Source: Gemmatimonadaceae bacterium (GTDB taxonomy: Bacteria > Gemmatimonadota > Gemmatimonadetes > Gemmatimonadales > Gemmatimonadaceae). From it: a stretch of DNA of 64,000 nucleotides. The stretch lies in the NCBI GenBank assembly GCA_025934775.1, contig JAICWO010000001.1, positions 186,001-250,000 on the forward strand. The letters are read 5' to 3'. The translations under genes were made by a program, and so were the position numbers. Under the pieces are notes generated by a model that was given only the letters and a program-made list of their open reading frames with translations, ran no database searches and was not told where the DNA came from. Below, piece after piece: positions 12,062-61,121 of the stretch (positions are counted from its first letter, which is position 1; each line of letters starts with the position of its first letter).

Positions 12062-12125
12062 GTCATCCCGAGCGCAGCGGCGAAGCCGCGAAGTCGAGGG
12101 ATGACACCGCTGCGCTCGGGATGAC
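12062..12125. repeat. Dispersed palindromic repeat, copy R1; probable terminator of sprA
   Basis: A perfect 19-bp inverted repeat: 12062-12080 (GTCATCCCGAGCGCAGCGG) pairs with 12107-12125, with a 26-base loop that contains an inner GTCGAGGGATGAC. It starts 8 bases after the sprA stop and could act as a terminator or RNA-stabilising hairpin. The same sequence family recurs at 27502, 30364 and 60995, with a fragment at 13159. Confidence 0.85.
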
Positions 12126-21835: not shown

Positions 21836-22507
21836 ATGTCCACCGCGTTTCCATCCGCCGACGCTGTGCTCGCGCGGCTGCGTGCCGTGCGCATCGTGCC
21901 GGTCATCACGATCGACGATCCGGACGACGCGGTGCCGCTCGCGCGCGCTCTCTCCGACGGCGGGCTCTCGTGCGCGGAGATCACCTTCCGCACGCCGCGC
22001 GCCCCCGAAGCACTGCACCGGATCACGACCGAAGTCCCCGATCTCTTCGCGGGCGCGGGGACCGTGCTCACGCCGGAGCAGGCCGCGCAGGCGCGGGCTG
22101 CCGGCGCGCAATTCATCGTCGCGCCGGGACTCAATCCCCGCGTCGCGGATTATTGCACGACGGAGGGGATTCCGTTCTATCCAGGCGTCGCGACGCCGAG
22201 CGACGTCGAGACGGCGCTGGAGCACGGGCTGACGATGCTCAAGTTTTTCCCCGCCGAACCGATGGGTGGTTTGAGTTTTCTCAAGGCGATCGCGGCGCCG
22301 TACGTCGACGTGAGCTTCATGCCGACCGGCGGCATCAACGCGAGCAATGTCGCGAGCTATCTCGCGTTCAAGCGCGTCGTCGCGTGCGGTGGATCGTGGA
22401 TGGCGCCGGCCGATTGGATCTCCGGCAAGCAGTTCGATCGCATTCGCGACGAAGCGCGCCGGGCGACCGAGCTCGCGGGCGGCAAGATGCCGGCGGTGGC
22501 CGTATGA
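21836..22507 (+). CDS. eda: KDPG aldolase
   Basis: 223 residues, a single TIM-barrel. It cleaves 2-keto-3-deoxy-6-phosphogluconate to pyruvate and glyceraldehyde 3-phosphate. Family motifs are the Glu-bearing EITFRTP strand, [22 protein letters not shown], and the Schiff-base Lys in [12 protein letters not shown], followed by FMPTGGI. It lies one base after uxaB and overlaps kdgK by 4 nt. It is the only aldolase of this type in the window, so it serves the second uronate locus as well. Confidence 0.95.
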
Positions 22508-23532
22508 GCCGCGTCGTCACGCTCGGCGAAGTGATGCTCCGGCTCAAGGCGCCCGGCTTCGAGCGACTGTTCCAGTCCGCGCTGCTCGAGGCGACGTTCG
22601 GCGGCGCGGAGGCGAACGTCGCGGCGTCGCTCGCGCAGTACGGCGTCGACGCGCGATTCGTGTCGGCGGTGCCGGCCAACAACGTCGGCGACTCCTGCAT
22701 CGCGGCGCTGCGCGCGTTCGGTCTCGACACGTCGATGATCAAGCGGCAGGGCGAGCGGCTCGGGATCTACTACCTCGAGAACGGCGCGAACCAGCGTCCG
22801 TCGCGGGTGACCTACGATCGCGCCGGTTCGGCGATCGCGACGGCGAAGGCGAGCGACTTCGACTGGGCCGCGGTGTTCGATGGTGCCGACTGGTTTCACA
22901 TCAGCGGCGTCACGCCGGCGATCAGCGCGACGGCCGCCGAGCTCTCGATCACGGCGGCGCGCGAGGCGCGCAGTCGCGGGCTGACCGTCTCCTGCGACTA
23001 CAACTATCGCAAGAATCTGTGGAAGTACGGCAAGAAGGCGCCGGAGGTGATGCGCGAGCTCGTCGCGCTGGCGCACGTCGGGATCGCGAACGAAGAGGAT
23101 TGTCAGAAGGCGCTCGGCATCGACGCCGACGTCGACGTGAAATCGGGCGCGCTCGGCGAAGACAAGTACCGCATGCTCGCCGAGCGTGTGCTGAAGACGT
23201 TCCCGAATCTCACGACGCAGGTGATCACGCTGCGCGAGAGCCACAGCGCGGACCACAACGGCTGGAGCGCGGTGCTCTACAACGGCAGCGACTTTCTCGC
23301 GAGCCGGCATTACGAGATCACTGATATCGTGGATCGCGTGGGCGCCGGCGATTCGTTCGCCGCGGCGCTGATCTACGGGCTGCGTGCGTATCGCGACGAC
23401 GCGAAAGCGCTCGAGTTCGCGGTGGCCGCGTCGTGCCTCAAACATTCCATTCTCGGCGACATCAACCGCGTGAGTGTCGTCGAGGTCGAGGCGCTCATGT
23501 CGGGCGACGCGAGCGGGCGAGTGCAACGGTGA
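22504..23532 (+). CDS. kdgK: 2-keto-3-deoxygluconate kinase (PfkB family)
   Basis: 342 residues from the ATG at 22504. A longer open frame starting at 21970 is only the shifted reading of eda. It phosphorylates KDG to KDPG. The PfkB fold is shown by TLGEVMLRL at the N-terminus, [24 protein letters not shown], and the catalytic signature [13 protein letters not shown] (about residues 277-289). The start overlaps eda (ATGA) and the stop overlaps the transporter start (GTGA), which indicates coupled translation. Confidence 0.94.
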
Positions 23533-24797
23533 ACGAGACCAGAATCGGGAAGTACCGCTGGGTGATCTGCGCGTTGCTGTTCTTCGCGACGACGATCAAC
23601 TACATGGATCGGCAGATCCTCGGCATCCTCGCTCCCACGCTCCAACACCAGATCGGGTGGAACGAGCAGCAGTACGGAGTGATCATTTCCTGGTTCACGG
23701 CGGCGTACGCGATCGGCTACATCTTCGCGGGCCGGATCATGGACCGGCTCGGATCGCGCATCGGCTTCACGATCGCGATCCTCATTTGGAGTCTCTCATC
23801 AATGTCGCACGCGCTGGCCCGATCCGTTCGCGGATTCGCGGCGGCGCGCTTCGGTCTCGGGCTCGGCGAATCAGGCAATTTCCCGGGCGGCATCAAAACG
23901 GTCGCCGAGTGGTTTCCGGCGCGCGAGCGCGCGCTGGCGACTGGAGTGTTCAATGCGGGATCGAACGTGGGCGCGATCGTGGCGCCGCTCGCGGTGCCGT
24001 GGATCGCGCTGCACTGGGGTTGGCAGTACGCGTTCGTCTGCAGCGGCTCGCTGGGCCTGATCTGGCTCGCGTTCTGGGTCGCGATCTACCGCAAGCCCAC
24101 GGAGCATCCGAAGCTCGCCGCGCCGGAGCTCGCGCACATCCAGAGCGATCCCACCGAGCCGGGCACGCGCGTGAGCTGGTTCCGGCTGCTTCGCTATCGT
24201 CAGACGTGGGCGTTCGCGATCGGAAAGTTCATGACCGATCCAATCTGGTGGTTCTATCTCTACTGGCTGCCCAAGTTCCTGGACGCGCGATACGGGATCA
24301 AGCTCAGTCAGGTCGCGCTGCCGCTGATCGTCGTCTACGTGATGGCGGACGCGGGCTCGGTGTTCGGCGGTTGGCTGAGCGGCGCGTTCATCAAGCGTGG
24401 AATGACGGTGAACGCCGGCCGCAAGCTCACGATGTTGATCGCGGCGGTACTCATCGTTCCGACGATGTTCGCGCCGAGCGCGTCGAACATGTGGGTGGCG
24501 GTGCTCATCGTCGGCGTCGCCGCGGCGGCACACCAATGGTGGTCGTGCAACATCTTCACGTTCCCGAGCGACATGTTCCCGCGCTTCGCCGTGGGTTCGG
24601 TCGTCGGGATCGGCGGCTTCATCGGCTCGGTCGGCGGCTTTCTCTTTCAGCGCGCGACCGGCTGGGTGCTCCAGCGCAACGGGGACAACTACACTCCGGT
24701 CTTCGTGGTGTGCGGTCTCGCGTACGTGTCGGCGCTGTTGATCATGCATCTCCTCGTGCCGCGGATGCGGCGCGTCGAGCTTCCGGCGGCGGTATGA
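23529..24797 (+). CDS. exuT: Hexuronate:cation symporter (MFS, ExuT-like)
   Basis: 422 residues from the GTG at 23529, which overlaps the kdgK stop. It is a major facilitator with about 12 membrane helices. The anion:cation symporter signatures are [18 protein letters not shown] in helix 1 and [17 protein letters not shown] with the following EWFP block. These typify ExuT/GudP-type carriers of hexuronates and aldarates. It should import galacturonate or glucuronate across the inner membrane. It is co-transcribed with the uxa genes and overlaps the pectate lyase start. Confidence 0.92.
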
Positions 24798-26065
24798 TGC
24801 TTCGGAGTAGTGTGATCGCGCTCCTGCTCGCGGGCGTCGCGGGCGCGCAGCGTCCGAGCGGCGGCGGCACGCCGAATCCGATGGACTCGATTCGGCGGTT
24901 GCCGAACTATCGTCCGGCGCACGATACCGTGACGCTGCTCTCGCTCCAGCGCCTGGAGAAGCTTCCGCCGGCGCAGCAGCGCGACTGGTTCGCGTACATC
25001 GGACGGTCGACGGCGGAGTACGCGCACGACACCGCGGTGATGCACCGCGAGCTGCGCCAGGCGCACATGCGCGAGATGGTCCGCGCGCCGTACACGCACG
25101 ATTTCTCCGTGAAACCGTACATGACGCCGGCGTGGTTCGCGACCGACACCGCGCGGCGCATCGCCGACGCGATCGCGAGCTACCAGGCCCCGAACGGCGG
25201 CTGGTCCAAGCATGTGGACTTCACGCTGCACCCCCGTCAGCCGGGCGAGAGCTACTACGGCGAGTCGAACGAGTGGCAGTGGATCTCCACGTTCGACAAC
25301 GATCAGACGACGGAAGAGATTCACTTTCTGAATCTCGCAAGCCGCGCGCACGCCGATTCGCGATACGAGCGCGCGATCGCGCGCGGCATCGACTACGTGC
25401 TCGACACGCAGTATCCGAACGGCTGCTTTCCGCAGGTCTATCCGCTCGAGGGGAGCTATCACGACGCGGTCACGTTCAACGACAACGTCGCGGTGAACGT
25501 GCTGACGCTGCTCGATTCCGTCGCGGCGGGGAGCTATCCGGCCGTCACCAATCACGCGCGGCAACGCGCGGCCGCCGCGTCCGCGCGGGGCCTCGCGTGC
25601 ATTCTCGACGCGCAGGTCCGTGTGAACGGCGAGCTCACCGCGTGGGGGCAGCAGCACGATCCGCTCACGCTCGCGCCGACGAGCGCGCGGAGCTACGAGC
25701 TCACCTCGCTCGCGGGGCTCGAGAGCTCGGAGATCCTCGATTACCTGATGTCGCTGCAGACTCCGAGCCCGCGCGTCGTTGCGGCGGTGTACGCCGGCGC
25801 GAACTGGTTCAAGCGCGTTCCCGTCAACGGCTACACCTACGAGCACTATGTGCTCACGCCCAAGGCGGGGGCTGGGCCGCTGTGGGGCCGGCTCTACGAG
25901 ATCGGAACCAATCGCGTGATCATGGCGAACCGCGACGGCAAGACGCTCTACGATTGGAATCAGCTCACGGATCGTCGCTCGGGATACGGCTGGTACTCGG
26001 CCGCGCCGGCGGCGATGCTCGCGCGATTCGACGCGTGGTCTCAAACCCATCCGCAGGCACCGTAA
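24794..26065 (+). CDS. Exported pectate lyase, PL10-like
   Basis: 423 residues from the first of two consecutive ATG codons (24794, 24797). The signal peptide ends VAGA before QRPSG. The catalytic part matches the PL10 (alpha/alpha toroid) pectate lyases: SYQAPNGGWSKHVDF, STFDNDQTTEEIHFL, the DTQYPNGCFPQVYPLEG block, VTFNDNVAVN and the late YEIGTNRVIMANRDG. It cleaves polygalacturonate by beta-elimination and gives unsaturated oligomers. The unsaturated ends feed the GH105 and KduI/KduD steps encoded just downstream. Confidence 0.88.
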   Translation: MMLRSSVIALLLAGVAGAQRPSGGGTPNPMDSIRRLPNYRPAHDTVTLLSLQRLEKLPPAQQRDWFAYIGRSTAEYAHDTAVMHRELRQAHMREMVRAPYTHDFSVKPYMTPAWFATDTARRIADAIASYQAPNGGWSKHVDFTLHPRQPGESYYGESNEWQWISTFDNDQTTEEIHFLNLASRAHADSRYERAIARGIDYVLDTQYPNGCFPQVYPLEGSYHDAVTFNDNVAVNVLTLLDSVAAGSYPAVTNHARQRAAAASARGLACILDAQVRVNGELTAWGQQHDPLTLAPTSARSYELTSLAGLESSEILDYLMSLQTPSPRVVAAVYAGANWFKRVPVNGYTYEHYVLTPKAGAGPLWGRLYEIGTNRVIMANRDGKTLYDWNQLTDRRSGYGWYSAAPAAMLARFDAWSQTHPQAP

Positions 26066-27489
26066 TGCAACGACGTGATTTCGTTCGCACCCTTGGCGCG
26101 GGCGCGATGCTCGCGTCGCCGCTCGGCGCGTGGGCGCGGCGCTCGCCGGGCCGGGCGGGGCTGCTGCCGCCGGAGGCGGGGGGCTGGGAACTGCTGCCGG
26201 GGATCCTCGCGCGCATCGCGCCGCCAGAGTTTCCAGATCGAGAATTCAACATCACGAAATACGGCGCGCGGGAGGGCGGCACGGCCGACTGCACGGAGGC
26301 GATCCGGCGCGCGATCGCGGCCTGCGCGCGGGCGGACGGCGGCCGCGTCGTGGTTCCGGAGGGGCGGTTTCACACGGGCGCGATTCACCTGGAGAGCAAC
26401 GTCGACCTCCACGTCGCTCGCGGTGCGACGCTTTTGTTCAGCCAAGATCCAAAAGCGTACCTGCCCCAGGTGCTCACGCGCTTCGAGAGCACGGAGCTGA
26501 TGAACTACTCGCCGTTCATCTATGCGTACGGCAAGGAGAACGTCGCGATCACCGGCGAGGGCACGCTCGACGGCCAGGCGGACGCGGCGCACTGGTGGTT
26601 CTGGAAGGGGAGCAAGGATGCCGGCTGGAAGCCGGGCATGCCGAACTACAACGCGTCGCGCCAGCGGCTGCTCGCGATGGCGGAGCAGGGCGCCGCGGTC
26701 GGGACGCGCGTGTTCGGCGAGGGCGACTACCTGCGCCCAAACTTCATCCAGCCGTACCGCTGCAAGAACGTCCTCATCGAAAACGTGACGATCGTCAATT
26801 CGCCGATGTGGGAGATCAATCCCACGCTCTGCGAGAACGTCACGGTCCGCGGCGTGAAGATCGACAGCCATGGCCCGAACAACGACGGCGTCGATCCCGA
26901 TTCGTGCCGCGATGTGCTCATCGACCGCTGCACGTTCGACACGGGCGACGACTGCATCGCGATCAAGTCGGGCCGCAACGCCGATGGCCGCCGCGTACAC
27001 GTGGCGAGCGAGAACATCGTCGTGCGCAACTGCAGCATGAAAGACGGCCACGGCGGCGTGACGGTCGGGAGCGAGATCTCGGGCGGCTGCTGGAACGTCT
27101 TCGCGTACGACTGTCACATGGACAGCCCGATCCTCTACTCAGCGCTCCGTCTCAAGAACAACGCGATGCGCGGCGGCGATCTGCACGACATCTACATGCG
27201 CGACGTCACCGTGGGCCAGGTGTCGCAGGCGATCCTGTCGATCGACTTCTATTATGAGGAAGGTGACAAGGGTCCGTTCACGCCGATCGCGCGGAACATC
27301 GAGATGCGCCGCGTCACCAGCGAGAAGAGCCCGTACGGCCTGTATCTGCGCGGCTTCCCGAACGCCCCGATCGAGGACGTGCGCGTGCTCGATTGCCGGT
27401 TCGCGAATGTCGAGAAGGGGAACGTGACGGAGCACGTGAAGGGGCTCGATCTGGCGGGCACGACGATCAACGGGAAGAAGGCGGAGTGA
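26065..27489 (+). CDS. Exported GH28 polygalacturonase, Tat signal
   Basis: 474 residues; the ATG shares a base with the preceding stop. The N-terminus MQRRDFVRTLGAGAMLA is a twin-arginine-type signal, the only one seen among the exported enzymes here. The GH28 beta-helix begins at FNITKYGAREGG. Active-site residues are Asp274 in NNDGVD, Asp295-Asp296 in TGDDC, and His329 in GHGGVTVGSE. It hydrolyses alpha-1,4-galacturonosyl bonds; exo or endo mode is not clear, and related rhamnogalacturonan activity is possible. It overlaps the GH105 start by one base. Confidence 0.92.
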   Translation: MQRRDFVRTLGAGAMLASPLGAWARRSPGRAGLLPPEAGGWELLPGILARIAPPEFPDREFNITKYGAREGGTADCTEAIRRAIAACARADGGRVVVPEGRFHTGAIHLESNVDLHVARGATLLFSQDPKAYLPQVLTRFESTELMNYSPFIYAYGKENVAITGEGTLDGQADAAHWWFWKGSKDAGWKPGMPNYNASRQRLLAMAEQGAAVGTRVFGEGDYLRPNFIQPYRCKNVLIENVTIVNSPMWEINPTLCENVTVRGVKIDSHGPNNDGVDPDSCRDVLIDRCTFDTGDDCIAIKSGRNADGRRVHVASENIVVRNCSMKDGHGGVTVGSEISGGCWNVFAYDCHMDSPILYSALRLKNNAMRGGDLHDIYMRDVTVGQVSQAILSIDFYYEEGDKGPFTPIARNIEMRRVTSEKSPYGLYLRGFPNAPIEDVRVLDCRFANVEKGNVTEHVKGLDLAGTTINGKKAE

Positions 27490-28751
27490 TGACGCCGGCG
27501 CGTCATCCCGAGCGAAGCGGCGGAGGAGCGAAGTCGAGCGGGTGCCCGCACCAGCGGGCGCGCGGCCCGTCGCGCAACGCACCCAGATTCCTCGACTCGC
27601 TTCGCTCGCTCGGAATGACGGTGGGTCTCGGAATGACGGTTCTCACATCGACCGCGCTCTCCGCCCAGCAACCCTGGTCCGTTCGCGTAGCCAACTCCGT
27701 GATGCAGCGCGGTCCCGCCGCCGTCTACGGAAAATGGGACTACACCGCCGGCCTCGTCCTCCTCGGCCTCGAGCGCGTCGGCGAGCGGACGGGCGACCCG
27801 GCGTACGCGGCGTACATCAAGCGGAGCGTCGATTCGTTGGTGCATCCGGACGGCTCGATCGCGACGTACAACCCCGCCGAGCACAATCTCGATCAGATCA
27901 ATGAAGGCCGCGTGCTGTTCGCGTTGTACGATCGCACGCACGACGCGCGCTACGCGAGGGCCGCGGATCGCCTGCGTGAGCAGTTGCGCAACCAGCCGCG
28001 CACGAGCGAAGGCGGGTTCTGGCACAAGGACATCTACCCGCAGCAGATGTGGCTCGACGGCCTGTACATGGCCGAGCCGTTCTACGCCGAGTACGCCGCG
28101 CGGCACCACGACACCACGGCGATGAACGACGTCGTGCATCAGTTTCTTCTAATCGCTCGGCATACACGCGATCCGAAAACAGGATTGTTCTACCACGCGT
28201 GGGATGCGACGCATCATCAGCCGTGGGCCGATCCAACGACCGGCGACTCGAAGAATTTCTGGGGACGCGCCGACGGCTGGTACTTGATGGCCGCGATGGA
28301 CGTGCTCGACTACCTGCCGAAGGATCTGCCGCAGCGCGGCGCGCTCATTCAGGTCGTGCAGCAGCTCGCGAGGGCGGTGGCCAACGTACAGGACCCGGTC
28401 TCCGGCGTCTGGTGGCAGGTGCTCGATCAACCGAATCGCGCGAAGAACTATCTCGAGGCATCCAGCTCGGCGATGTTCGTCTACGCGTTCGCGAAGGGCG
28501 CGCGGATGGGCTATCTCGCGCCGACGTACCGCCGCCTCGCCGAGCGCGGTTTTGATGGAATGCTAAAAACCTTCGTCACCGTCGATCCGGGCGGACTCGT
28601 CTCGATCAACGGCATTTGTAAGGTCGCGGGGCTTGGCGGGAATCCGCCGCGCGACGGCTCCTACGCGTATTACGTGAGCGAGCCGGTGGTCTCGAACGAC
28701 TACAAGGGTGTCGGCGCGTTCATCCTCGCCGCGAACGAGCTGGGACGATGA
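27489..28751 (+). CDS. GH105 unsaturated galacturonyl/rhamnogalacturonyl hydrolase
   Basis: The frame opens at 27489 (420 residues), but repeat R2 fills its first roughly 150 bases. More likely starts are the ATG at 27615 or 27633, which are part of the repeat and directly precede a signal peptide ending TALSA before QQPWS. The mature part is a GH105 alpha/alpha barrel: GKWDYTAGLVLLGLE, HNLDQINEGR, PQQMWLDGLYMAEPF and FWGRADGWYLMA, which carry the family Asp residues. The enzyme removes the 4,5-unsaturated uronate that lyases leave at the non-reducing end, releasing DKI for KduI. Confidence 0.88.
   Translation: MTPARHPERSGGGAKSSGCPHQRARGPSRNAPRFLDSLRSLGMTVGLGMTVLTSTALSAQQPWSVRVANSVMQRGPAAVYGKWDYTAGLVLLGLERVGERTGDPAYAAYIKRSVDSLVHPDGSIATYNPAEHNLDQINEGRVLFALYDRTHDARYARAADRLREQLRNQPRTSEGGFWHKDIYPQQMWLDGLYMAEPFYAEYAARHHDTTAMNDVVHQFLLIARHTRDPKTGLFYHAWDATHHQPWADPTTGDSKNFWGRADGWYLMAAMDVLDYLPKDLPQRGALIQVVQQLARAVANVQDPVSGVWWQVLDQPNRAKNYLEASSSAMFVYAFAKGARMGYLAPTYRRLAERGFDGMLKTFVTVDPGGLVSINGICKVAGLGGNPPRDGSYAYYVSEPVVSNDYKGVGAFILAANELGR
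27502..27638. repeat. Dispersed palindromic repeat, copy R2 (inside the GH105 frame)
   Basis: The left arm GTCATCCCGAGCGAAGCG (27502-27519) pairs with the right arm near 27599-27619 (CTTCGCTCGCTCGGAATGAC). A second partial right end, TCTCGGAATGAC, follows at 27627-27638. The repeat lies within the open frame and encodes HPERSGG...RFLDSLRSLGMT. Its two ATG triplets are candidate start codons for the GH105 gene. Confidence 0.85.
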
Positions 28752-29515
28752 GCGTGCTCGATCTCTTCTCGCTCTCCGGCAAGCGCGCGCTCGTCACGGG
28801 TGCGAGCCGCGGGCTCGGTCGTGCCATGGCGCTTGCGCTCGCCGACGCGGGCGCCGCCGTGGTCTGCGCGAGCTCGTCGCCGGACGGCGCCGCGAAAACC
28901 GCGGACGCGGTCCGCGCGCTGGGGCGGGACGCGTGGTTGGCGCACGGGGATCTCGCCGACGCGAGCGCGGTCGCGCGAATGGCGGACGAGGCGGAACGCG
29001 TCGCGGGCCGGATCGACATTCTCGTCAACAATGGCGGCACCATCGCGCGTCATCCGGCGGTGGAGTTTCCGACCGGCGAGTGGGAGCGCGTGTTGCGCAC
29101 CAATCTCGACGCGACGTGGCAGTTGAGCCAACGATTCGGCCGCGGGATGCTCGATCGCGGTGCGGGGAAGATCGTCAACGTCGCATCGCTGCTCTCGTTC
29201 AGCGGCGGCATCACCGTCCCCGCATACACGGCGAGCAAGCACGCCGTCGCGGGAGTGACCAAGGCGCTCGCGAACGAGTGGGCGTCGCGCAACGTGCAGG
29301 TGAACGCGATCGCGCCCGGCTACTTCGCGACCGACAACACCGCCGGACTCCGCGCCGACGAGCGCCGCGCCGCCGAGATCAGCGGGCGCATTCCCGCGGC
29401 GCGCTGGGGCCAACCGTCCGATCTCGCCGGTGCGGTCGTGTTCCTCGCGTCCGCCGCCAGCGACTACGTCAATGGGCACATCCTCGTCGTCGACGGCGGC
29501 TGGATGGCTCGCTAA
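28748..29515 (+). CDS. kduD: KduD-like SDR, 2-deoxy-D-gluconate/DKII dehydrogenase
   Basis: 255 residues. A classical short-chain dehydrogenase: LVTGASRGLGRAMALA (cofactor loop), NNGGT, catalytic Ser in NVASLLSF, and the YTASKHAV Tyr/Lys pair. KduD interconverts 2,5-diketo-3-deoxygluconate (DKII) and KDG, the last step for unsaturated galacturonate. The position between GH105 and kduI supports this over other SDR roles. It overlaps the GH105 stop by 4 nt; kduI follows after 11 bases. Confidence 0.88.
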   Translation: MSVLDLFSLSGKRALVTGASRGLGRAMALALADAGAAVVCASSSPDGAAKTADAVRALGRDAWLAHGDLADASAVARMADEAERVAGRIDILVNNGGTIARHPAVEFPTGEWERVLRTNLDATWQLSQRFGRGMLDRGAGKIVNVASLLSFSGGITVPAYTASKHAVAGVTKALANEWASRNVQVNAIAPGYFATDNTAGLRADERRAAEISGRIPAARWGQPSDLAGAVVFLASAASDYVNGHILVVDGGWMAR

Positions 29516-29526
29516 TCACCGCACCC

Positions 29527-30351
29527 ATGCACTTTCTTCCCGACGCCATCCGCTCGCGAACGTTGACCACGCAGGAGTTGCGCGACGCGTTCCTCGTGAC
29601 CGATCTGTTTCAGCCGGATGCCGTGGTGCTGCGGCACATCGATCTCGATCGCGTCGTCCTCGGCGGCGTCGTGCCGTGCTGCGATACGCTGACACTCCAC
29701 GCACCCGAGTCGCTCGGGGTGGAGCACTTCACCGAACGCCGCGAGCTGGGCGTTCTCAACATCGGCGCGCGCGGCAGTGTGACGGTGGCCGGCACGCGCC
29801 ACGACCTCGATAAGCGCGACGTGCTCTACATCGGCCGCGGCAACGAGGAAATCACGTTCGAGAGCGCGAGCACCACCGACGCCGCGCGGTTCTATCTCGT
29901 GAGCTATCCCGCCCACGCCGACAGCCCGACGACGCTCGTTCGCGCTGGTGACGTGACCGGCGATCCGATCGGCAGCGCCGAGCACGCGAACGCGCGACGC
30001 GTGGCGCGGTACATCCATCTGGCGGGCGCGCGCAGCGCGCAGCTCGTGATGGGCGTGACGCAGCTCGCGCCGGGCAGCGTGTGGAACACCATGCCGGCGC
30101 ACACGCATTTCCGCCGCACCGAGGTGTACCTGTACTTCGACGTTCCGGACGACGGTTTCGTGGTGCACCTGATGGGCGAGCCGACCGAGACGCGGCATCT
30201 GATCGTGCGGAACGAGCAGGTCGTGCTCTCGCCGCCCTGGTCGATTCACTCGGGATGCGGGACGAGCCACTACACGTTCTGCTGGGCGATGGGCGGCGAG
30301 AACCAGGACTACGGCGACATGCAACTGGCCGACATGAGGGAATTGAAATGA
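29527..30351 (+). CDS. kduI: 5-keto-4-deoxyuronate isomerase
   Basis: 274 residues, the family length. KduI converts 5-keto-4-deoxyuronate (DKI), made from unsaturated galacturonate, to DKII. It has the double-cupin fold, with the metal block NTMPAHTHFRRTEVYLYFD, and the family features FTERRELGVLNIG, DVLYIGRG, PPWSIHSGCGT and a C-terminal GENQDYGDMQ. The ATG at 29527 gives the normal N-terminus MHFLPDAIR. Its stop overlaps the DUF4861 open frame. Confidence 0.95.
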   Translation: MHFLPDAIRSRTLTTQELRDAFLVTDLFQPDAVVLRHIDLDRVVLGGVVPCCDTLTLHAPESLGVEHFTERRELGVLNIGARGSVTVAGTRHDLDKRDVLYIGRGNEEITFESASTTDAARFYLVSYPAHADSPTTLVRAGDVTGDPIGSAEHANARRVARYIHLAGARSAQLVMGVTQLAPGSVWNTMPAHTHFRRTEVYLYFDVPDDGFVVHLMGEPTETRHLIVRNEQVVLSPPWSIHSGCGTSHYTFCWAMGGENQDYGDMQLADMRELK

Positions 30352-31676
30352 GTATACTAACGAGTCATTCCGAGCGACCGAGCGCAGCGAGGGAGTCGAG
30401 GAATCTGGCCTCCGCTTCGCGAGGCATCCCACGCGCGCCACGAGCCCAGATCCCTCGACTTCGCCGCTTCGCGGCGGCGTTCGGGATGACCCGAGTCGCG
30501 AGTCGCTTCGCGGCGGCGCTCGGGATGACCCTGCTCCTTCCCGCCGCGGCCGTTGCGCAGTCCGCCTTCACCATCTCCGCGAGCAACACGCTCGCGATCG
30601 CCCGACCCGCCGAAACGATCTCGGTGCCGTGGTCCACAGTGCAGCGCGAGCTCGCCGGGGCCAGAGCCGGCGGCGTGCGCGTCATCAGCCTTGGCGCCGG
30701 CCGCGAGATCGTCTCGCAGGTCGTGGACGACGACGGCGACGGCACGATGGACGAGTTGATCTTTCAATCCGACTTCTCGCCAAACGAAGTCCAGCGGTTC
30801 ACGATCGAGGCCGCGGCGGCGCAGGCGAGCTACGCGAAGAAGCGCGTCTACGTCGCGCACGAGGATCCGCGCGACGACGTGGCGTGGGAATCCGACCGGA
30901 TCGCATTCCGCATCTACGGCCAGGGGCTGTGGAAGGTCGATTCGCTGCTCAGCAGCGGCGTCGATATCTGGGTCAAGCGCGTGCGCGACCCGATCGTCGA
31001 CAAGTGGTACAAGAAGGGGCACGACGAGTATCACCACGACAATGGCGAGGGCGCCGATTTCTTCGACGTCGGGCAGTCGCTCGGCGCCGGCGGCACCGCG
31101 ATCTGGAAGAACGATTCGCTCTATCGCGCCTGGAACTTCAAGAGATGGAAGATCATCGCCAACGGCCCGGTGCGCGCGATCTTCGAGTTGTACTATCAGC
31201 CGTGGGACGCGTCCGGAATGCGCGTGACCGAGGTGAAGCGCGTCGCGCTCGACGCGGGTCATAATCTGAATCACGTCACGAGCATTTTCCGCGCGGAGAA
31301 CGGCGTCACGGAGATCCCATGGGCGACCGGGATCGTGAAGCGCCCCTCGGTCGTCGGATCCGAGAGCAAGGCGCGTCCGTGGGCGTGGCTCGCCGAGTGG
31401 GGGCCGATCGTGCCGAAAGACGGCGGACACGGAGACCTCGGCATCGGCATTCTGATGCCGCGCACGTCGGTCGATGATTGGAAGGAGACGAGCGATCACT
31501 ATTTAGCGATCTCTCATACCAAATCTGGTCAGCCGGCGGACTACTGGATCGGCGCCGGCTGGACCGACAGCGGGGACTTCCGCGACGTGCAGGACTGGTG
31601 GAACTATCTCGACCACTGGGCGCAGCGTCTGTCGACGCCGCTCAAAGTCACGGTCGACGCGCCGAGCCATCGATGA
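30348..31676 (+). CDS. Exported DUF4861-family protein of unknown function
   Basis: The open frame starts at 30348 and overlaps kduI (ATGA), giving 442 residues. Its first roughly 60 residues are encoded by repeat R3. The ATG at 30486 gives a clean signal peptide, MTRVASRFAAALGMT then LLLPAAAVA before QSAFT, and is the likely functional start; the ATG at 30525 is another option. The mature protein has the DUF4861 hallmarks as I recall them: a DDDGDGTMDELIFQSDFSPN block, VAWESDRIAFRIYGQGLW, and a Trp-rich C-terminus (YWIGAGWTDSG, DWWNYLDHW). The position among pectin enzymes suggests a lyase, hydrolase or binding role. No function is assigned. Confidence 0.8.
   Translation: MSILTSHSERPSAARESRNLASASRGIPRAPRAQIPRLRRFAAAFGMTRVASRFAAALGMTLLLPAAAVAQSAFTISASNTLAIARPAETISVPWSTVQRELAGARAGGVRVISLGAGREIVSQVVDDDGDGTMDELIFQSDFSPNEVQRFTIEAAAAQASYAKKRVYVAHEDPRDDVAWESDRIAFRIYGQGLWKVDSLLSSGVDIWVKRVRDPIVDKWYKKGHDEYHHDNGEGADFFDVGQSLGAGGTAIWKNDSLYRAWNFKRWKIIANGPVRAIFELYYQPWDASGMRVTEVKRVALDAGHNLNHVTSIFRAENGVTEIPWATGIVKRPSVVGSESKARPWAWLAEWGPIVPKDGGHGDLGIGILMPRTSVDDWKETSDHYLAISHTKSGQPADYWIGAGWTDSGDFRDVQDWWNYLDHWAQRLSTPLKVTVDAPSHR
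30364..30529. repeat. Dispersed palindromic repeat, copy R3 (inside the DUF4861 frame)
   Basis: GTCATTCCGAGCG (from 30364) opens the copy. It closes with GCGTTCGGGATGAC ending at 30490 and again with GCGCTCGGGATGAC ending at 30529, so the right end is present twice. In frame it encodes RFAAAFGMT and RFAAALGMT; the second becomes the core of the predicted signal peptide. Confidence 0.85.
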
Positions 31677-34078
31677 GAGCCGCACTGGTCCTGGTCGCCG
31701 CGCTCGCTGGCGCGTCAACGCTTACCGCGCAGGATACGCGTACCGTCTCCGAGCCGACGCGGCCGGCGGCGTGCAAAGCGTTGGAGGCGGAGCTCCAGCC
31801 GCTCGCCGATACCACGCTCGACGACCGCGACGAAACGAAGCTCGATACGCGGCGGATTCAGTCCGCGATCGACGGCTGTGGCTACGGGAAGGCGGTCGTC
31901 CTCCGCGCGCATGGTGCGAAGACGGCGTTTCTCACCGGCCCGCTCGAGCTGCGGCGCGGCGTGACGCTCGTCGTCGACACCAACGTAGTGCTGTTCGCGT
32001 CGCGCGATCCGCGCGAGTACGACATCGAGCGCCCCGGGCGGTGCGGCACGGTCGACGCGAAAGGGCATCACTGCAAGCCGCTCATCACCGCCGACCACGC
32101 GAACGGCTCCGGCATCATGGGGCCGGGCACGATCGACGGGCGCGGCTGGGCGAAGCTCCTCGGCGACACGGTCTCGTGGTGGGATCTCGCGCAGGACGCC
32201 AAGGTCAAGAACGAGAGCCAGAGCTGCCCGCGATTGATTCAGTTCACGCTCTCGAACGACGTCACGCTCTACGACGTGCGGATCAAGAACTCGCCGAACT
32301 TTCACGTCGTGTTCGATCGCGGCAACGGCTTCACCGCGTGGGGCGTTGTGATCGACACGCGTGATCCGCGCGCGCGCAACACGGATGGCATCGATCCCGC
32401 GAGCGCGACCAACGTCACGATCACGCACAGCGACATCAACACGGGCGACGACGACGTCGCGATCAAGGCGGGCAAGATCCCGAGCTCGCACATGACGATC
32501 TCGCACGATCATTTCTATCGCGGCCACGGGATGTCGATCGGCAGCGAGACCGATGGCGGCGCGAGCGCGATCCGCGTGTTCGATCTGTCGATCGACGGCG
32601 CGGACAACGGACTGCGGATCAAATCGAACGCGGCGCGCGGCGGCTTGGTGCACGACGTCGAGTACCGCGACGTGTGCATCCGCAACACTGGCCACCCGAT
32701 CGAGATGAACACGCACTACTCCGATTCGCCGCAGACGACCGGCATGCTGATTCCCGAGTTCCGCGACATTCGACTGCTGGACGTGCGCGTGCAGGGCGGC
32801 GGCCGTGTGATTCTCCAGGGCTATGACGAGCACCGCCGTCTGACGATGACGTGGAACAACGTCGTCTTCGACGATCCGGCGAAGATCAAGCTGGTGGCCG
32901 CGCACGTGACGATCACGAAGGGATCGGGACCGAGCAACTTGCCAATCTCGGGCGAGGACGTGGTGGTCGAGGGCACGACGTCTGAGGCGCCGGTGAATTC
33001 GTGCGTCGACAAGTTCGTGCCGATGCCGGTCGCGAGCGCCGCGGGTCGCGCGGGCGATTACACGGCCATCGTCGACGCGCGATTCAGCAGAACGGACGGC
33101 GACAGCAGCGCCGGCGCGCCGACGTTTCGCACGCTCGGCGCGGCGCTCACGCACCTGCCGCCGAACGGCGTTGGCCGCGCCGTGATCTTCGTCAGGAACG
33201 GCCGCTATCACGAAAAGCTCACAATCGACCGGCCGTACGTCACGCTGCTCGGCCAGAACCGCGACAGCACGATCATCTCGTACGACGCGGCGGCCGACAC
33301 GCCGAGTCCTGGCGGCGGCACGTACGGCACGCGCGGCAGCTTCACACTCCGCGTGGTGGCGCCCGACTTTCGCGCCGAGAATCTCACGATCGAGAATGCG
33401 TTCGACTATCCCGCGAACGTGGCCAAGCCGGCGACGGATCCGACGAAGCTCAAGAACATGCAAGCCGTCGCGCTCATGCTCGATCTCGATTCCGATCGCG
33501 CGACGTTCGTGAATGACAAGATCACGGGCTATCAGGACACGCTCTTTCCGAACGCGGGTCGAAGCTACTTCTACAAGAGCGAGATCTGGGGCCACGTCGA
33601 TTTCATCTTTGGCGCAGGGCAAGCGGTGTTCGACGACTGCGACATCGTATCGCGCGACCGCGGCAGCCAGACGCTCAACGGCTACGTGACCGCGGCGAGC
33701 ACCAGCATCGCGAAGCCGTACGGCTTTCTCTTCATCCATAGCCGGCTGAAGAAGGACACCCCGAAGATGGCGCCAAACTCGGTGACGCTCGGCCGGCCGT
33801 GGCATCCGTTCGCGAACCCGCGTGCCGTTGCCAGCGTCGCCTATATCGATTGTTGGATGGACGATCACATTGGCGCAAAGGGGTGGGATCGAATGTCCTC
33901 GGTGGACTCCACCGGGACGCGCGTCTGGTACGAGCCGTCGTCGGCGCGATTCGCGGAGTTCGGCTCGACGGGACCCGGCGCGGTGAAGAGCGCGACGCGA
34001 CCGCAACTCACGGCCGATGACGCCAAGCGCTATACGCCGTCGAACGTACTCGATGGCTGGGTGCCGCTGCTCCGTTGA
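31673..34078 (+). CDS. Exported GH28 polygalacturonase-CE8 pectin methylesterase fusion
   Basis: 801 residues from the ATG overlapping the previous stop. The signal peptide ends STLTA before QDTRT. The N-terminal half (about residues 40-440) is a GH28 beta-helix with Asp238 (DGIDP), Asp259-261 (TGDDD) and His285 (GHGMSIGSE). The C-terminal half (about 475-790) is a CE8 beta-helix with GYQDTLF (Asp622), HVDFIFGAG (Asp643) and LGRPWH (Arg708). One polypeptide could remove methyl esters and cut the exposed polygalacturonate. All catalytic residues appear intact. It is the last enzyme gene of the pectin operon. Confidence 0.92.
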   Translation: MRAALVLVAALAGASTLTAQDTRTVSEPTRPAACKALEAELQPLADTTLDDRDETKLDTRRIQSAIDGCGYGKAVVLRAHGAKTAFLTGPLELRRGVTLVVDTNVVLFASRDPREYDIERPGRCGTVDAKGHHCKPLITADHANGSGIMGPGTIDGRGWAKLLGDTVSWWDLAQDAKVKNESQSCPRLIQFTLSNDVTLYDVRIKNSPNFHVVFDRGNGFTAWGVVIDTRDPRARNTDGIDPASATNVTITHSDINTGDDDVAIKAGKIPSSHMTISHDHFYRGHGMSIGSETDGGASAIRVFDLSIDGADNGLRIKSNAARGGLVHDVEYRDVCIRNTGHPIEMNTHYSDSPQTTGMLIPEFRDIRLLDVRVQGGGRVILQGYDEHRRLTMTWNNVVFDDPAKIKLVAAHVTITKGSGPSNLPISGEDVVVEGTTSEAPVNSCVDKFVPMPVASAAGRAGDYTAIVDARFSRTDGDSSAGAPTFRTLGAALTHLPPNGVGRAVIFVRNGRYHEKLTIDRPYVTLLGQNRDSTIISYDAAADTPSPGGGTYGTRGSFTLRVVAPDFRAENLTIENAFDYPANVAKPATDPTKLKNMQAVALMLDLDSDRATFVNDKITGYQDTLFPNAGRSYFYKSEIWGHVDFIFGAGQAVFDDCDIVSRDRGSQTLNGYVTAASTSIAKPYGFLFIHSRLKKDTPKMAPNSVTLGRPWHPFANPRAVASVAYIDCWMDDHIGAKGWDRMSSVDSTGTRVWYEPSSARFAEFGSTGPGAVKSATRPQLTADDAKRYTPSNVLDGWVPLLR

Positions 34079-34138
34079 CAGCGCGCGACGACGCGCGTTG
34101 TGTTGAGATGACCTCCACCGTCGCTCATCGCTAGCGTC

Positions 34139-35350
34139 GTGCGAAAGCTCAACACCCGAAATTTCCGACTCGCGACGCGTTCCACGCCGCGCGAGGTGAA
34201 TCGGCAGATCGTGCTCAATCTCATTCGCGAGCACCAGCCGATCTCGCGCGCCGACCTCGCGCGCCGCATGAAAGTTCCGCGCGCGGCGCTGACGACGATC
34301 GTGCGCGAGCTGCTGGAGAGCGGGGCGGTGTACGATTCCGGCGCGGCGACCGCGGTCCGCGGCCGGCGTCCCCGGCTTCTCGCGATTCGCACGAGTGGAC
34401 GCTTCGTCATCGCCGCCGACGTGCGGCAAGGGAACACCTCGCTGGTGTTGGCTGACTTCGGCGGCCAGATCGTCGCGCGCAAGTCGATCCGGACACCCGA
34501 TTCGCCGGCGAAGCTGCTCGATGAGATGGTGACGCAGGTCTCCCGCACCCTCCGCGAGCATCGCGCGAGCGACGGGGAAACGGTGCAGGGCGTCGGCATC
34601 GTGGTGCCTGGAATGGTCGATCGCCACTCCGGCCGCGTGCTCTACGCGCCGCGACTCGGCTGGCGCGATGTCGATCTGCAAGAGCCGCTCTCGGCGCGGC
34701 TCGGGCTGCCGGTGTCGATCGAGAGCGCGCCGATCGCGTGCGCGCTCGCGCGCCTCTGGGCGATGAAGGGCGACTCGCGCGCCGTGAACAACTTCGCGTA
34801 CGTGAGCGTGTCCGACGGCGTCGGTGTCGCCGTCGTCGTCCGCGGTGAAGTGTTGCGCGGCGAAGACCACACCGCGGGCGAGATCGGCCACGTGTCGCTC
34901 GACCCCAACGGCCCGCAGTGCGCGTGCGGCAAGCGCGGATGCTGGGAGGCCTTCTGCTGCAACGCCGCGACGGTCGCTCGGTATGCCGGCGCGCTGGGCA
35001 CGCGCTCGGCGGCCCGCGGCGCGACCACCGTCGAGGAGATCGTGCGCCGCGCGCTGCGCGGCGAGGCGGCCGCCGTGAAAGCGATCACCCAGACCGGCCA
35101 GCAGATCGGCCGCGGCCTCGCCGCGGTAGTGAGCGCGTTCAATCCCAAACGCATCTACGTCGGCGGCGAGATCACCGCCGCGTGGGACATGATCGAGCGG
35201 CCGATGCGGATCGAGCTCGAGCACGGCACGCTGACCGAGGCGGCCCGCAACACGCCGATTCACCCCGACGCCAACCCCGCCGAGTACCGCCTGCTCGGCG
35301 CGGTGGCCCTCGTGTCGTCGCCGGCGTTCGAGATGCCGAGAATCGGATAG
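34139..35350 (+). CDS. ROK-family transcriptional regulator 2
   Basis: 403 residues from a GTG start, 60 bases after the GH28-CE8 stop. The domain layout is the same as the ROK gene at 15871: N-terminal winged helix (REVNRQIVLNLI, ISRADLARRMKV), then a ROK domain with zinc motif CACGKRGCWEAF and the GIVVPGMVD and AGEIGHVSLDP blocks. The first 45 residues nearly match regulator 1, while the effector half diverges more. It may be co-transcribed with the pectin operon and act as a second sensor. Confidence 0.9.
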   Translation: MRKLNTRNFRLATRSTPREVNRQIVLNLIREHQPISRADLARRMKVPRAALTTIVRELLESGAVYDSGAATAVRGRRPRLLAIRTSGRFVIAADVRQGNTSLVLADFGGQIVARKSIRTPDSPAKLLDEMVTQVSRTLREHRASDGETVQGVGIVVPGMVDRHSGRVLYAPRLGWRDVDLQEPLSARLGLPVSIESAPIACALARLWAMKGDSRAVNNFAYVSVSDGVGVAVVVRGEVLRGEDHTAGEIGHVSLDPNGPQCACGKRGCWEAFCCNAATVARYAGALGTRSAARGATTVEEIVRRALRGEAAAVKAITQTGQQIGRGLAAVVSAFNPKRIYVGGEITAAWDMIERPMRIELEHGTLTEAARNTPIHPDANPAEYRLLGAVALVSSPAFEMPRIG

Positions 35351-35356
35351 AAATCG

Positions 35357-35455
35357 GAGGTTGGAGATTGGAGGCTGGAGATTAGAGAATGCTAGTTTCT
35401 GTATACTAACGCGCACCAAGGCCTTGCCGACCTCCGACCTCCAGCCTCCAACCTC
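35357..35455. repeat. GGAGGTTGGAG-type inverted repeat
   Basis: GAGGTTGGAG (35357-35366) pairs with CTCCAACCTC (35446-35455). Inside, the left side repeats TTGGAG-type units and the right side repeats CCTCC-type units, so several registers of pairing are possible. It lies in the 229-base gap between the ROK gene and serA and could end the upstream operon. GTATACTAACG at 35401-35411 also occurs at 30352, beside repeat R3. Confidence 0.55.
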
Positions 35456-35579
35456 ACCTTCTCCGCGCCAATTGTAAGTCGAAAATACAAAAGCTCACCG
35501 CTTGTCCCGTGCTCCGTGCGCACTCTATTGTACCTGAGTCTCGCCGCACGTCAGCCGCTTTCTCGTCCGCCCAATACAG

Positions 35580-37211
35580 ATGCCGAGCTTCCGGGTGCTC
35601 GTCACAGACGAGGTGGATCCGCAGGGTGTCGAGCTCCTGCGAAGCCATCCGTCGCTCATCGTCGATGAGCGGCCCACCCGGCCATGGCGCGACTTGCTCG
35701 GCGAGATCGGCGAGTACGACGCGATCGTCGGACGCAGCGCCACGCAGATCCCCGGCGAGCTGCTTCGCGCCGCGACAAAGCTCCGCGTCATCGGGCGCGC
35801 CGGCGTCGGCACCGACAACATCGATCTCGCGACCGCGACCGAGCTCGGCATCGCGGTGATCAACGCGCCAGCGGGCAACACCATCGCCGTCGCGGAGCTC
35901 TTCTTCGGCGTCATGGTCTCGCTCGTCCGCCACCTGCCGGACGCATTCGCGTCGATGCGCGCCGGGCGATGGGATCGCACGAAGCTCCTCGGCACCGAGC
36001 TGCGCGGGCGCACCCTCGGCATCGTCGGTCTCGGACGAATCGGCGGCGAGGTGTCGTCGCGCGCGCGCGCCTTCGGGCTCCGCGTCATCGCGTGCGATCC
36101 ATATCTGCCGCGCGACCGCTTCGAGTTGCTGCGTGTCGAACGTGTGACCACCCTCGAAGAGCTGCTCGAGCAAGCCGACATCATCACGGTGCACACGCCG
36201 CTCACCGAGGAGACGCGCGGCATGATCGGCGAGCGCGAGCTCGCCCGCCTCAGAGCCGGCGCGGTCGTCGTGAACATGGCGCGCGGCGGCATCGTCAACG
36301 AAGACGCGCTGCGTGCCGCGCTCGAGAGCGGTCACGTGCGTGCCGCCGCGCTCGACGTGTATTCCAAGGAGCCGCTCGCGGCGGAGCATCCGCTCCGAAC
36401 GATGCCGAACGTGATCCTCACGCCCCACCTCGGCGCCTCGACCGCCGAAGGCCAGCGCAACGTCGCCGTGGACGCGTGCATCGCGGTCCGCGATGCGCTG
36501 CTCAGCGGCGCGCTCGCTGGGGCGGTGAACCTGGTCGACGTCGATCGCGAGCGGTGGAAGGAGATGCGCGGCGCGCTCCAGCTCGCCCGTCACTCCGCCG
36601 CGATCGGGCGCGCGATGCTCGCCGAGTGGGGCGCGCCGACCATCGCGCAGGTCACGGTGCACGTCGGCGCGCAGTTCGCCGGTGCCGAGAGCCTGCTCGT
36701 CGCCTCCGCCGCCGAAGGCACGCTCGCGCCGATCACGAACGGCGACCGCGTGAACGTGATCAACGCGCGCGCCCGCGCCGCCGAGCGCGGCATCGCCATC
36801 GCGACGCTGCCGGCTGATCCGGCGGCCGATCCATTCTCGATTCGTGTGACGATGAACGCCGACGGGCGCGCGCTCACGGTCGGCGGCGTCGCCGTCCCCG
36901 GTGCACCGCCGCGTCTCACGCGAATCGGCGAGTTCAAGGTCGACGTGACGCCGCGGCGCACGCTCATCGTCCTCACGAACGCCGACGTGCCCGGAGTGAT
37001 CGGCAACGTCGGCACCGTGCTGGGCAACGCCGGGATCAACATCGCCGAGTATCACCAGGCGCGGCTCCGCGTCGGCGGCGAGGCGCTCGCCGCGATCTCG
37101 GTCGACGGCGTCGTGACCGAGCCGGTGCGCCGCGCGCTCCTCGGCGTGCACGATGTTCGCACCGCGACGGTGGTCGATTGCGGCGACGGCGAGTCGGATT
37201 CATGGAGCTGA
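35580..37211 (+). CDS. serA: D-3-phosphoglycerate dehydrogenase, long form with ACT domain
   Basis: 543 residues, the long form. It oxidises 3-phosphoglycerate to 3-phosphohydroxypyruvate in serine synthesis; SerA can also reduce 2-oxoglutarate to D-2-hydroxyglutarate. Domain order is substrate-binding, then the nucleotide-binding Rossmann core (VGLGRIGGEVSSRA), catalytic Arg in NMARGGIVNE, His in LTPHLGAST, then an intervening domain (about 320-450) and a C-terminal ACT domain (IVLTNADVPGVIGNVGTVLG). It begins a five-gene operon; its end overlaps the next gene by 10 nt. Confidence 0.93.
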   Translation: MPSFRVLVTDEVDPQGVELLRSHPSLIVDERPTRPWRDLLGEIGEYDAIVGRSATQIPGELLRAATKLRVIGRAGVGTDNIDLATATELGIAVINAPAGNTIAVAELFFGVMVSLVRHLPDAFASMRAGRWDRTKLLGTELRGRTLGIVGLGRIGGEVSSRARAFGLRVIACDPYLPRDRFELLRVERVTTLEELLEQADIITVHTPLTEETRGMIGERELARLRAGAVVVNMARGGIVNEDALRAALESGHVRAAALDVYSKEPLAAEHPLRTMPNVILTPHLGASTAEGQRNVAVDACIAVRDALLSGALAGAVNLVDVDRERWKEMRGALQLARHSAAIGRAMLAEWGAPTIAQVTVHVGAQFAGAESLLVASAAEGTLAPITNGDRVNVINARARAAERGIAIATLPADPAADPFSIRVTMNADGRALTVGGVAVPGAPPRLTRIGEFKVDVTPRRTLIVLTNADVPGVIGNVGTVLGNAGINIAEYHQARLRVGGEALAAISVDGVVTEPVRRALLGVHDVRTATVVDCGDGESDSWS

Positions 37212-60994: not shown

Positions 60995-61121
60995 GTCATC
61001 CCGAGCGACCGAGCGCAGCGAGGGAGTCGAGGGATCTGGCGTCCGGTTCGCGATGTATGACCCGCGCGCCACGAGCCCAGATCCCTCGACTTCGCCGCTG
61101 CGCGGCTCCGCTCGGGATGAC
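60995..61121. repeat. Dispersed palindromic repeat, copy R4
   Basis: GTCATCCCGAGCGACCGAGC (from 60995) is matched by GGCTCCGCTCGGGATGAC ending at 61121. Between them TCGAGGGATCT and AGATCCCTCGA form an inner pair. This copy is intergenic, beginning 6 bases after the PL17-like stop. It shares long stretches with R3, including GCGCGCCACGAGCCCAGATC. Confidence 0.85.

Follow-up and report, generated by a model that had tools for sequence, protein, structure and literature searches.

Sequence comparison of this bacterium with its sister species points to a selfish palindrome that was repeatedly inserted, in frame, in the export tags of secreted enzymes, such that a large part of each tag would now be repeat-encoded. 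In the DUF4861 gene, a REPIN-like repeat copy (R3) has probably been inserted in frame near the start, where it would be read from the ATG at 30348 as part of a cleaved Sec signal. The gene contains the element in an open frame, its start is conserved and overlaps the stop of the upstream gene, and orthologues occur both with and without the element. Initiation at ATG 30348 and read-through of the element would follow from this arrangement. Genes for secreted proteins that have an element just inside and a start overlapping the upstream stop numbered 6 in this genome (G000) and 13 in sister species G004.

The window analysed is a stretch of 64,000 nt (positions 186,001 to 250,000 of contig JAICWO010000001.1). 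Its positions 22504-37211 hold a pectin/rhamnogalacturonan operon with many start/stop overlaps, which comprises a transporter, a pectate lyase (PF09492), GH28, GH88, SDR, KduI, DUF4861, and a GH28-pectinesterase fusion. The GH28 protein (26065-27489) begins MQRRDFVRTLGAGAML, a twin-arginine-like signal that is repeat-free and similar in sister species. The features of the window referred to below are:

12062-12125, intergenic: further copy of the element.
27486..27665, + strand: GH88 signal peptide region, from the conserved GTGA start at 27486 (or ATG 27489), through R2, to ...ALSA.
27502..27637, no strand assigned: R2, REPIN-like element carrying an additional arm, in the reading frame of GH88.
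27666..28751, + strand: GH88 mature protein (PF07470; Pfam E 8e-109; orthologues 73-79% identical).
29527..30351, + strand: kduI (PF04962), the upstream gene, with a 4-nt overlap with the DUF4861 start.
30336..30342, + strand: GAGGGAA, Shine-Dalgarno-like, 5' of ATG 30348.
30348..30350, + strand: most likely start codon of DUF4861, in an ATGA overlap with the kduI stop TGA (30349-30351).
30348..30557, + strand: predicted DUF4861 signal peptide, 70 residues, with expected cleavage AVA/QS at 30557/30558.
30364..30490, no strand assigned: R3, REPIN-like palindromic element (GTCATTCCGAG ... TTCGGGATGAC).
30486..30488, + strand: ATG within R3, paired in the hairpin stem.
30491..30529, + strand: R3 terminal arm, duplicated, in frame, 39 nt (family D10).
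30558..31676, + strand: DUF4861 mature protein (PF16153; Pfam E 8e-94; genus orthologues 70-72% identical).
60995-61121, intergenic: further copy of the element, 90% identical to R3.

Direct reading of the window showed that the R3 sequence (30364-30529) opens with GTCATTCCGAG and continues to TTCGCGGCGGCGTTCGGGATGAC, and that its second arm ends with TTCGCGGCGGCGCTCGGGATGAC. The sequence-only reading had stated that the two R3 arms encode RFAAAFGMT and RFAAALGMT in the DUF4861 frame, followed by LLLPAAAVA/QS, and that R2 and R3 are used in the same relative frame at two genes of one operon; both statements were confirmed. The two arms are spaced by 39 nt, a multiple of 3. The whole interval 30364-30529 is 166 nt long, not a multiple of 3.

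The motif TCGGRATGAC was present in 182 copies in the 4.88 Mb genome, versus 3 copies for the reversed control. The 127-nt R3 core folded into one long hairpin of -79.4 kcal/mol (z -7). From the copy numbers and the hairpin z score, the repeat is not a product of chance. The motif count was 450 in sister species G004; in other genomes of the phylum it was mostly ~10-60, with a maximum of 96. Both inverted arms around a spacer were found in 20 elements of G000 (~90-118 nt end to end), and extra arms in the family were often duplicated in tandem. Elements of G000 usually sat just 3' of the upstream gene's stop, and 88 of 99 repeat runs were not deep inside genes. G000 is a draft genome, from which ~5 kb was fetched around 161 of the 182 motif sites; genes were called by a home-made codon model, and starts by a simple caller plus comparison.

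The repeat resembles REPINs and REP dimers in its high copy number, inverted arm pairs, hairpins, and mostly intergenic position just after stops. REPINs are associated with RAYT (Y1) transposases; here, in contrast, a search for PF01797 (Y1/RAYT transposase) gave none in G000 or in four of five sister genomes (G002-G005). The fifth, G001, had one of Y1 type (L313, G001:C166), and the genus yielded no other. Because no Y1 transposase was found in G000 and in most of the sister genomes, we refer to the repeat as REPIN-like rather than as a REPIN. An Rfam search with the element gave a sole match, a microRNA family below threshold, which we took as chance.

The very stable fold of R3 is also what might be expected if the element were kept as an RNA hairpin that protects the 3' end of the upstream message or damps the downstream gene, with coding as a tolerated side effect. 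The position of the elements is consistent with this, since REPs in other bacteria are likewise reported just after stop codons (PMC3733652). We consider this explanation possible, on balance doubtful. However, such a putative role is compatible with translation and bears on the retention of the copies rather than on the way the protein is synthesised; it and in-frame read-through of the element can be true together.

The start codon of DUF4861 was examined by comparison of orthologues collected by protein search. The sequence-only reading had placed the start at the repeat's own ATG (30486), having missed that the DUF4861 frame is open upstream across all of R3 back to ATG 30348. Openness of this frame was rejected as evidence for translation: 58 of 64 elements (91%) are open in the ATG frame anyway, and it therefore carries no weight. 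The ATGA overlap with the kduI stop was kept in the DUF4861 orthologues of G000, G001, G004, and G005, and all same-genus orthologues still behind kduI had a start overlapping its stop; gene order differs around the G002 DUF4861. The junction sequence was GAGGGAATTGAAATGA in G000 and G004, GAGGGAACTGAAATGA in G005, and GCGATGA in G001. The repeat end of the G004 DUF4861 gene is GGGACGAC, in which ACG replaces ATG and which is still in frame from the upstream start. Because this repeat end has no ATG, the G004 protein must begin upstream. The conserved overlap, the G004 replacement, and the pairing of the 30486 ATG in the stem all argue against a start at 30486, which is probably wrong.

Dual starts would combine the two positions: translation would begin mostly at 30348, with some re-initiation at 30486 or 30525, and would give two signal lengths and one mature protein. 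The repeat-derived region does contain several in-frame ATGs, and the hydrophobic core is identical in both lengths. However, the 30486 ATG is paired in the hairpin and has no Shine-Dalgarno sequence, and the G004 DUF4861 gene has no ATG at the repeat end; we regard dual starts as unlikely. The other possibility is that the repeat is mostly 5' leader and that translation begins at the repeat ATG (30486; 27615 in GH88), giving a 24-residue signal peptide (MTRVASRFAAALGMTLLLPAAAVA). Such a peptide would be of typical length and charge, and codon scores were highest there: 30486 and 27615 were preferred as starts by our home-made codon-usage gene finder, which ignores ribosome-binding sites. At another locus (L091, ~2505, - strand), the start of a lipoprotein signal (MTRALFAATLALAAC) coincides exactly with the repeat end, without a tightly overlapping upstream start, and there the repeat ATG may be the real start. 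At DUF4861, however, the overlap with the upstream stop is conserved in all species of the same gene order, no Shine-Dalgarno sequence lies 5' of 30486, the ATG is base-paired in the folded element, and G004 has ACG in its place. In-frame overlapping starts in 6 of 7 and 12 of 13 cases (see below) also speak against the repeat ATG, and we give it little credence.

When read from ATG 30348, the predicted DUF4861 signal peptide had the core FAAALGMTLLLPAAAVA and an n-region with a net charge of +10, counting the N-terminus. A positive n-region, a hydrophobic core, and an AxA cleavage site were all present in this predicted Sec signal peptide; the calls were made by simple hydropathy and charge. 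Because the frame runs from ATG 30348 through the whole repeat, R3 would be translated whole, giving MSILTSHSERPSAARESRNLASASRGIPRAPRAQIPRLRRFAAAFGMTRVASRFAAALGMTLLLPAAAVA/QS, in which ~55 of 70 residues would be repeat-derived. The earlier proposal that the repeat supplies part of the signal peptide thus held, and for a larger part than had been claimed; its initiation at 30486 did not. At 53 residues, the n-region would be longer than is usual in Sec signals, which counts against read-through. Autotransporters likewise have extended signal peptides, in which a long and charged n-region precedes an ordinary Sec core; the sequence is host-conserved there, whereas that considered here is repeat-derived.

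The same operon was compared across five species. An RTGA start overlap was conserved for PL, GH88, DUF4861, and GH28-pectinesterase; the GH88 start, GTGA over the GH28 stop, was present in 5/5 species and corresponds to GTG 27486 in the window. In G001 and G005, sites were empty where the orthologue was found (pectate lyase was not found in the G001 and G005 stretches taken), and ordinary short signal peptides followed directly after the overlapping start (e.g., MTRHLGLVLAGIVAVAPAAAAQ in G005). In G000 (GH88 and DUF4861) and G004 (PL, GH88, DUF4861, and pectinesterase), an in-frame element separated the start from the cleavage site. The comparison of filled and empty sites thus revealed in-frame insertion in conserved genes whose orthologues are element-free. 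A third state was found in G002, whose GH88 gene had a repeat arm only (MNQLRNSLALLGMTAAAASAQ); all other orthologues recovered for these four genes had empty sites. In G000 as well as G004, elements were found in the orthologous genes for Beta-lactamase2-family and TPR proteins; in G002, the TPR gene had an arm-only form (MRLVAALGMTLVAGTLAAQ). The arm-only forms suggest that elements may later be trimmed.

Elements of one genome matched each other with best scores of 0.80-0.83, versus ~0.3 when compared with the sister species' element at the same gene. This closer resemblance within a genome was seen for the elements of G000 and for that in G004 GH88, and points either to separate insertion events or to homogenisation across the genome. 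The DUF4861 copy of G004 has decayed (0.47 within the genome, 0.44 across) and does not discriminate. The placement of most filled copies tested in genome-specific subfamilies suggests independent insertions. It is very unlikely that insertion abolished export and left a cytoplasmic protein in a neutral or decaying state: the n-regions greatly exceed those of empty orthologues in length, but reading frames are intact and 70-79% identical to orthologues, the cleavage motif (A/S)xA-Q is kept, and many genes in two species are in the same situation.

It had also been suggested that GGRATGAC ends mark gene starts genome-wide. In G000, 16 of 35 elements with a close same-strand downstream gene were in ATG phase (p=0.087), a weak bias; there is therefore no strong general phase rule, and the suggestion was not borne out. 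In-frame use was concentrated in genes where a signal peptide comes directly after the element. Seven in-phase elements of G000 were followed directly by a signal peptide or a lipoprotein signal. Of these, 6/7 had an in-frame start that overlaps the stop of the preceding gene by 4 or 1 nt, versus 2/24 of the other elements of the same genome, which served as the null rate (Fisher p 2.5e-4). The six G000 genes encode GH88, DUF4861, an amidohydrolase (L102), a TPR/peptidase protein (L132), a Beta-lactamase2-family protein (L142), and, without a family assignment, an 832-aa protein (L092). At L092 (2603-2672), three tandem in-frame 30-nt arms give the signal peptide (MTVRSLRSLG)n before LVLALLLAPAAHA. 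In G004, an overlapping start was present in 12 of 13 cases chosen solely by an in-frame A-Q site; the DUF4861 gene brings the number with such a start to thirteen. Across the genus, a hydrophobic stretch ending A-Q within 40 nt of the repeat end was in the ATG frame in 14 of 16 cases (p 2.7e-5). The spacing of duplicated arms in these genes was a multiple of 3 in 6/6 cases (4 in G000, 2 in G004), versus 14/28 elsewhere (p 0.03).

We propose that elements insert immediately 3' of stop codons. If the following gene overlaps the stop, the landing spot falls within the first codons of that gene; in DUF4861, the insertion site of R3 would be a few codons after the start. Most proteins would be harmed by insertion at that spot, and only a cleavable, sequence-tolerant signal peptide would survive it if the frame is kept. 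In-frame copies would persist because the signal peptide is removed and tolerates varied sequence. Ribosomes would begin at ATG 30348, in a start that overlaps and is probably coupled to kduI, and would then read through R3. The product would be a 70-residue Sec-type signal peptide with an arginine-rich n-region supplied by the repeat. The last arm (SLxSLGMT or RFAAALGMT) apparently happens to be hydrophobic enough for part of the h-region, which in DUF4861 would consist of this arm and the surviving original LLLPAAAVA. Signal peptidase would cut at AVA/QS, leaving the enzyme unchanged. More tentatively, a REPIN-like population may continually rewrite signal peptides in the genus by in-frame insertion and in-frame trimming to the arm core (as in G002 MRLVAALGMTLVAGTLAAQ and MNQLRNSLALLGMTAAAASAQ), such that selfish DNA would be a recurring source of export signals, perhaps also in other families of the phylum.

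The closest precedents are Rickettsia palindromic elements and the Yersinia YPAL element. The former are 100-150 bp long, lie in frame in conserved protein genes, in some cases at the N-terminus, and are reported to be expressed (PMC2229807, PMC3733652). The repeat described here is likewise palindromic and inserted in frame in conserved genes; compared by description, however, the Rickettsia elements occur in varied conserved proteins and ours in cleavable signal peptides beside overlapping starts. The Yersinia YPAL/RU-2 element partly forms the predicted signal peptide of YPO1552 (PMC2229807), and is thus also a mobile repeat forming part of a predicted signal peptide. That case concerns a single protein, putatively exported and proposed to represent a new gene, whereas here many conserved enzymes are affected, and the sites in their orthologues occur both filled and empty. 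A 2013 survey found REPs at the N-termini of ORFs and considered many of them to lie outside genes, on the grounds that the true start was further downstream (PMC3733652). Our species comparison argues the opposite, i.e., that the true start is upstream of the repeat. In the literature searched, which most subscription journals lie outside, we found no description of signal peptides as recurrent targets of REP insertion.

Cases in which a mobile repeat has been fused into a protein are mostly isolated curiosities, or the effect is unclear. The novelty of the present case is that insertion recurs at the signal peptides of orthologous conserved enzymes, and that a simple reason can be proposed for the site. 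Filled, empty, and trimmed states in sister species are directly comparable. They would provide a concrete path from selfish DNA to protein-coding DNA, and a natural experiment on the amount of added sequence that a Sec signal can accommodate. For such genes, the annotated start may be too far downstream. Among all bacteria, 80 loci with a similar motif were found, most of them probably not repeats; of the 9 hydrophobic A-Q cases among them, a single one was in frame, which gave no sign of a general effect. In G048, from another family of the phylum, two signal peptides (L318 and L319; e.g., MRRSLAEFTLSAANGLGMTLAVLFLLSFSSAHAQ) contained in-frame arm-like sequence of a related repeat.
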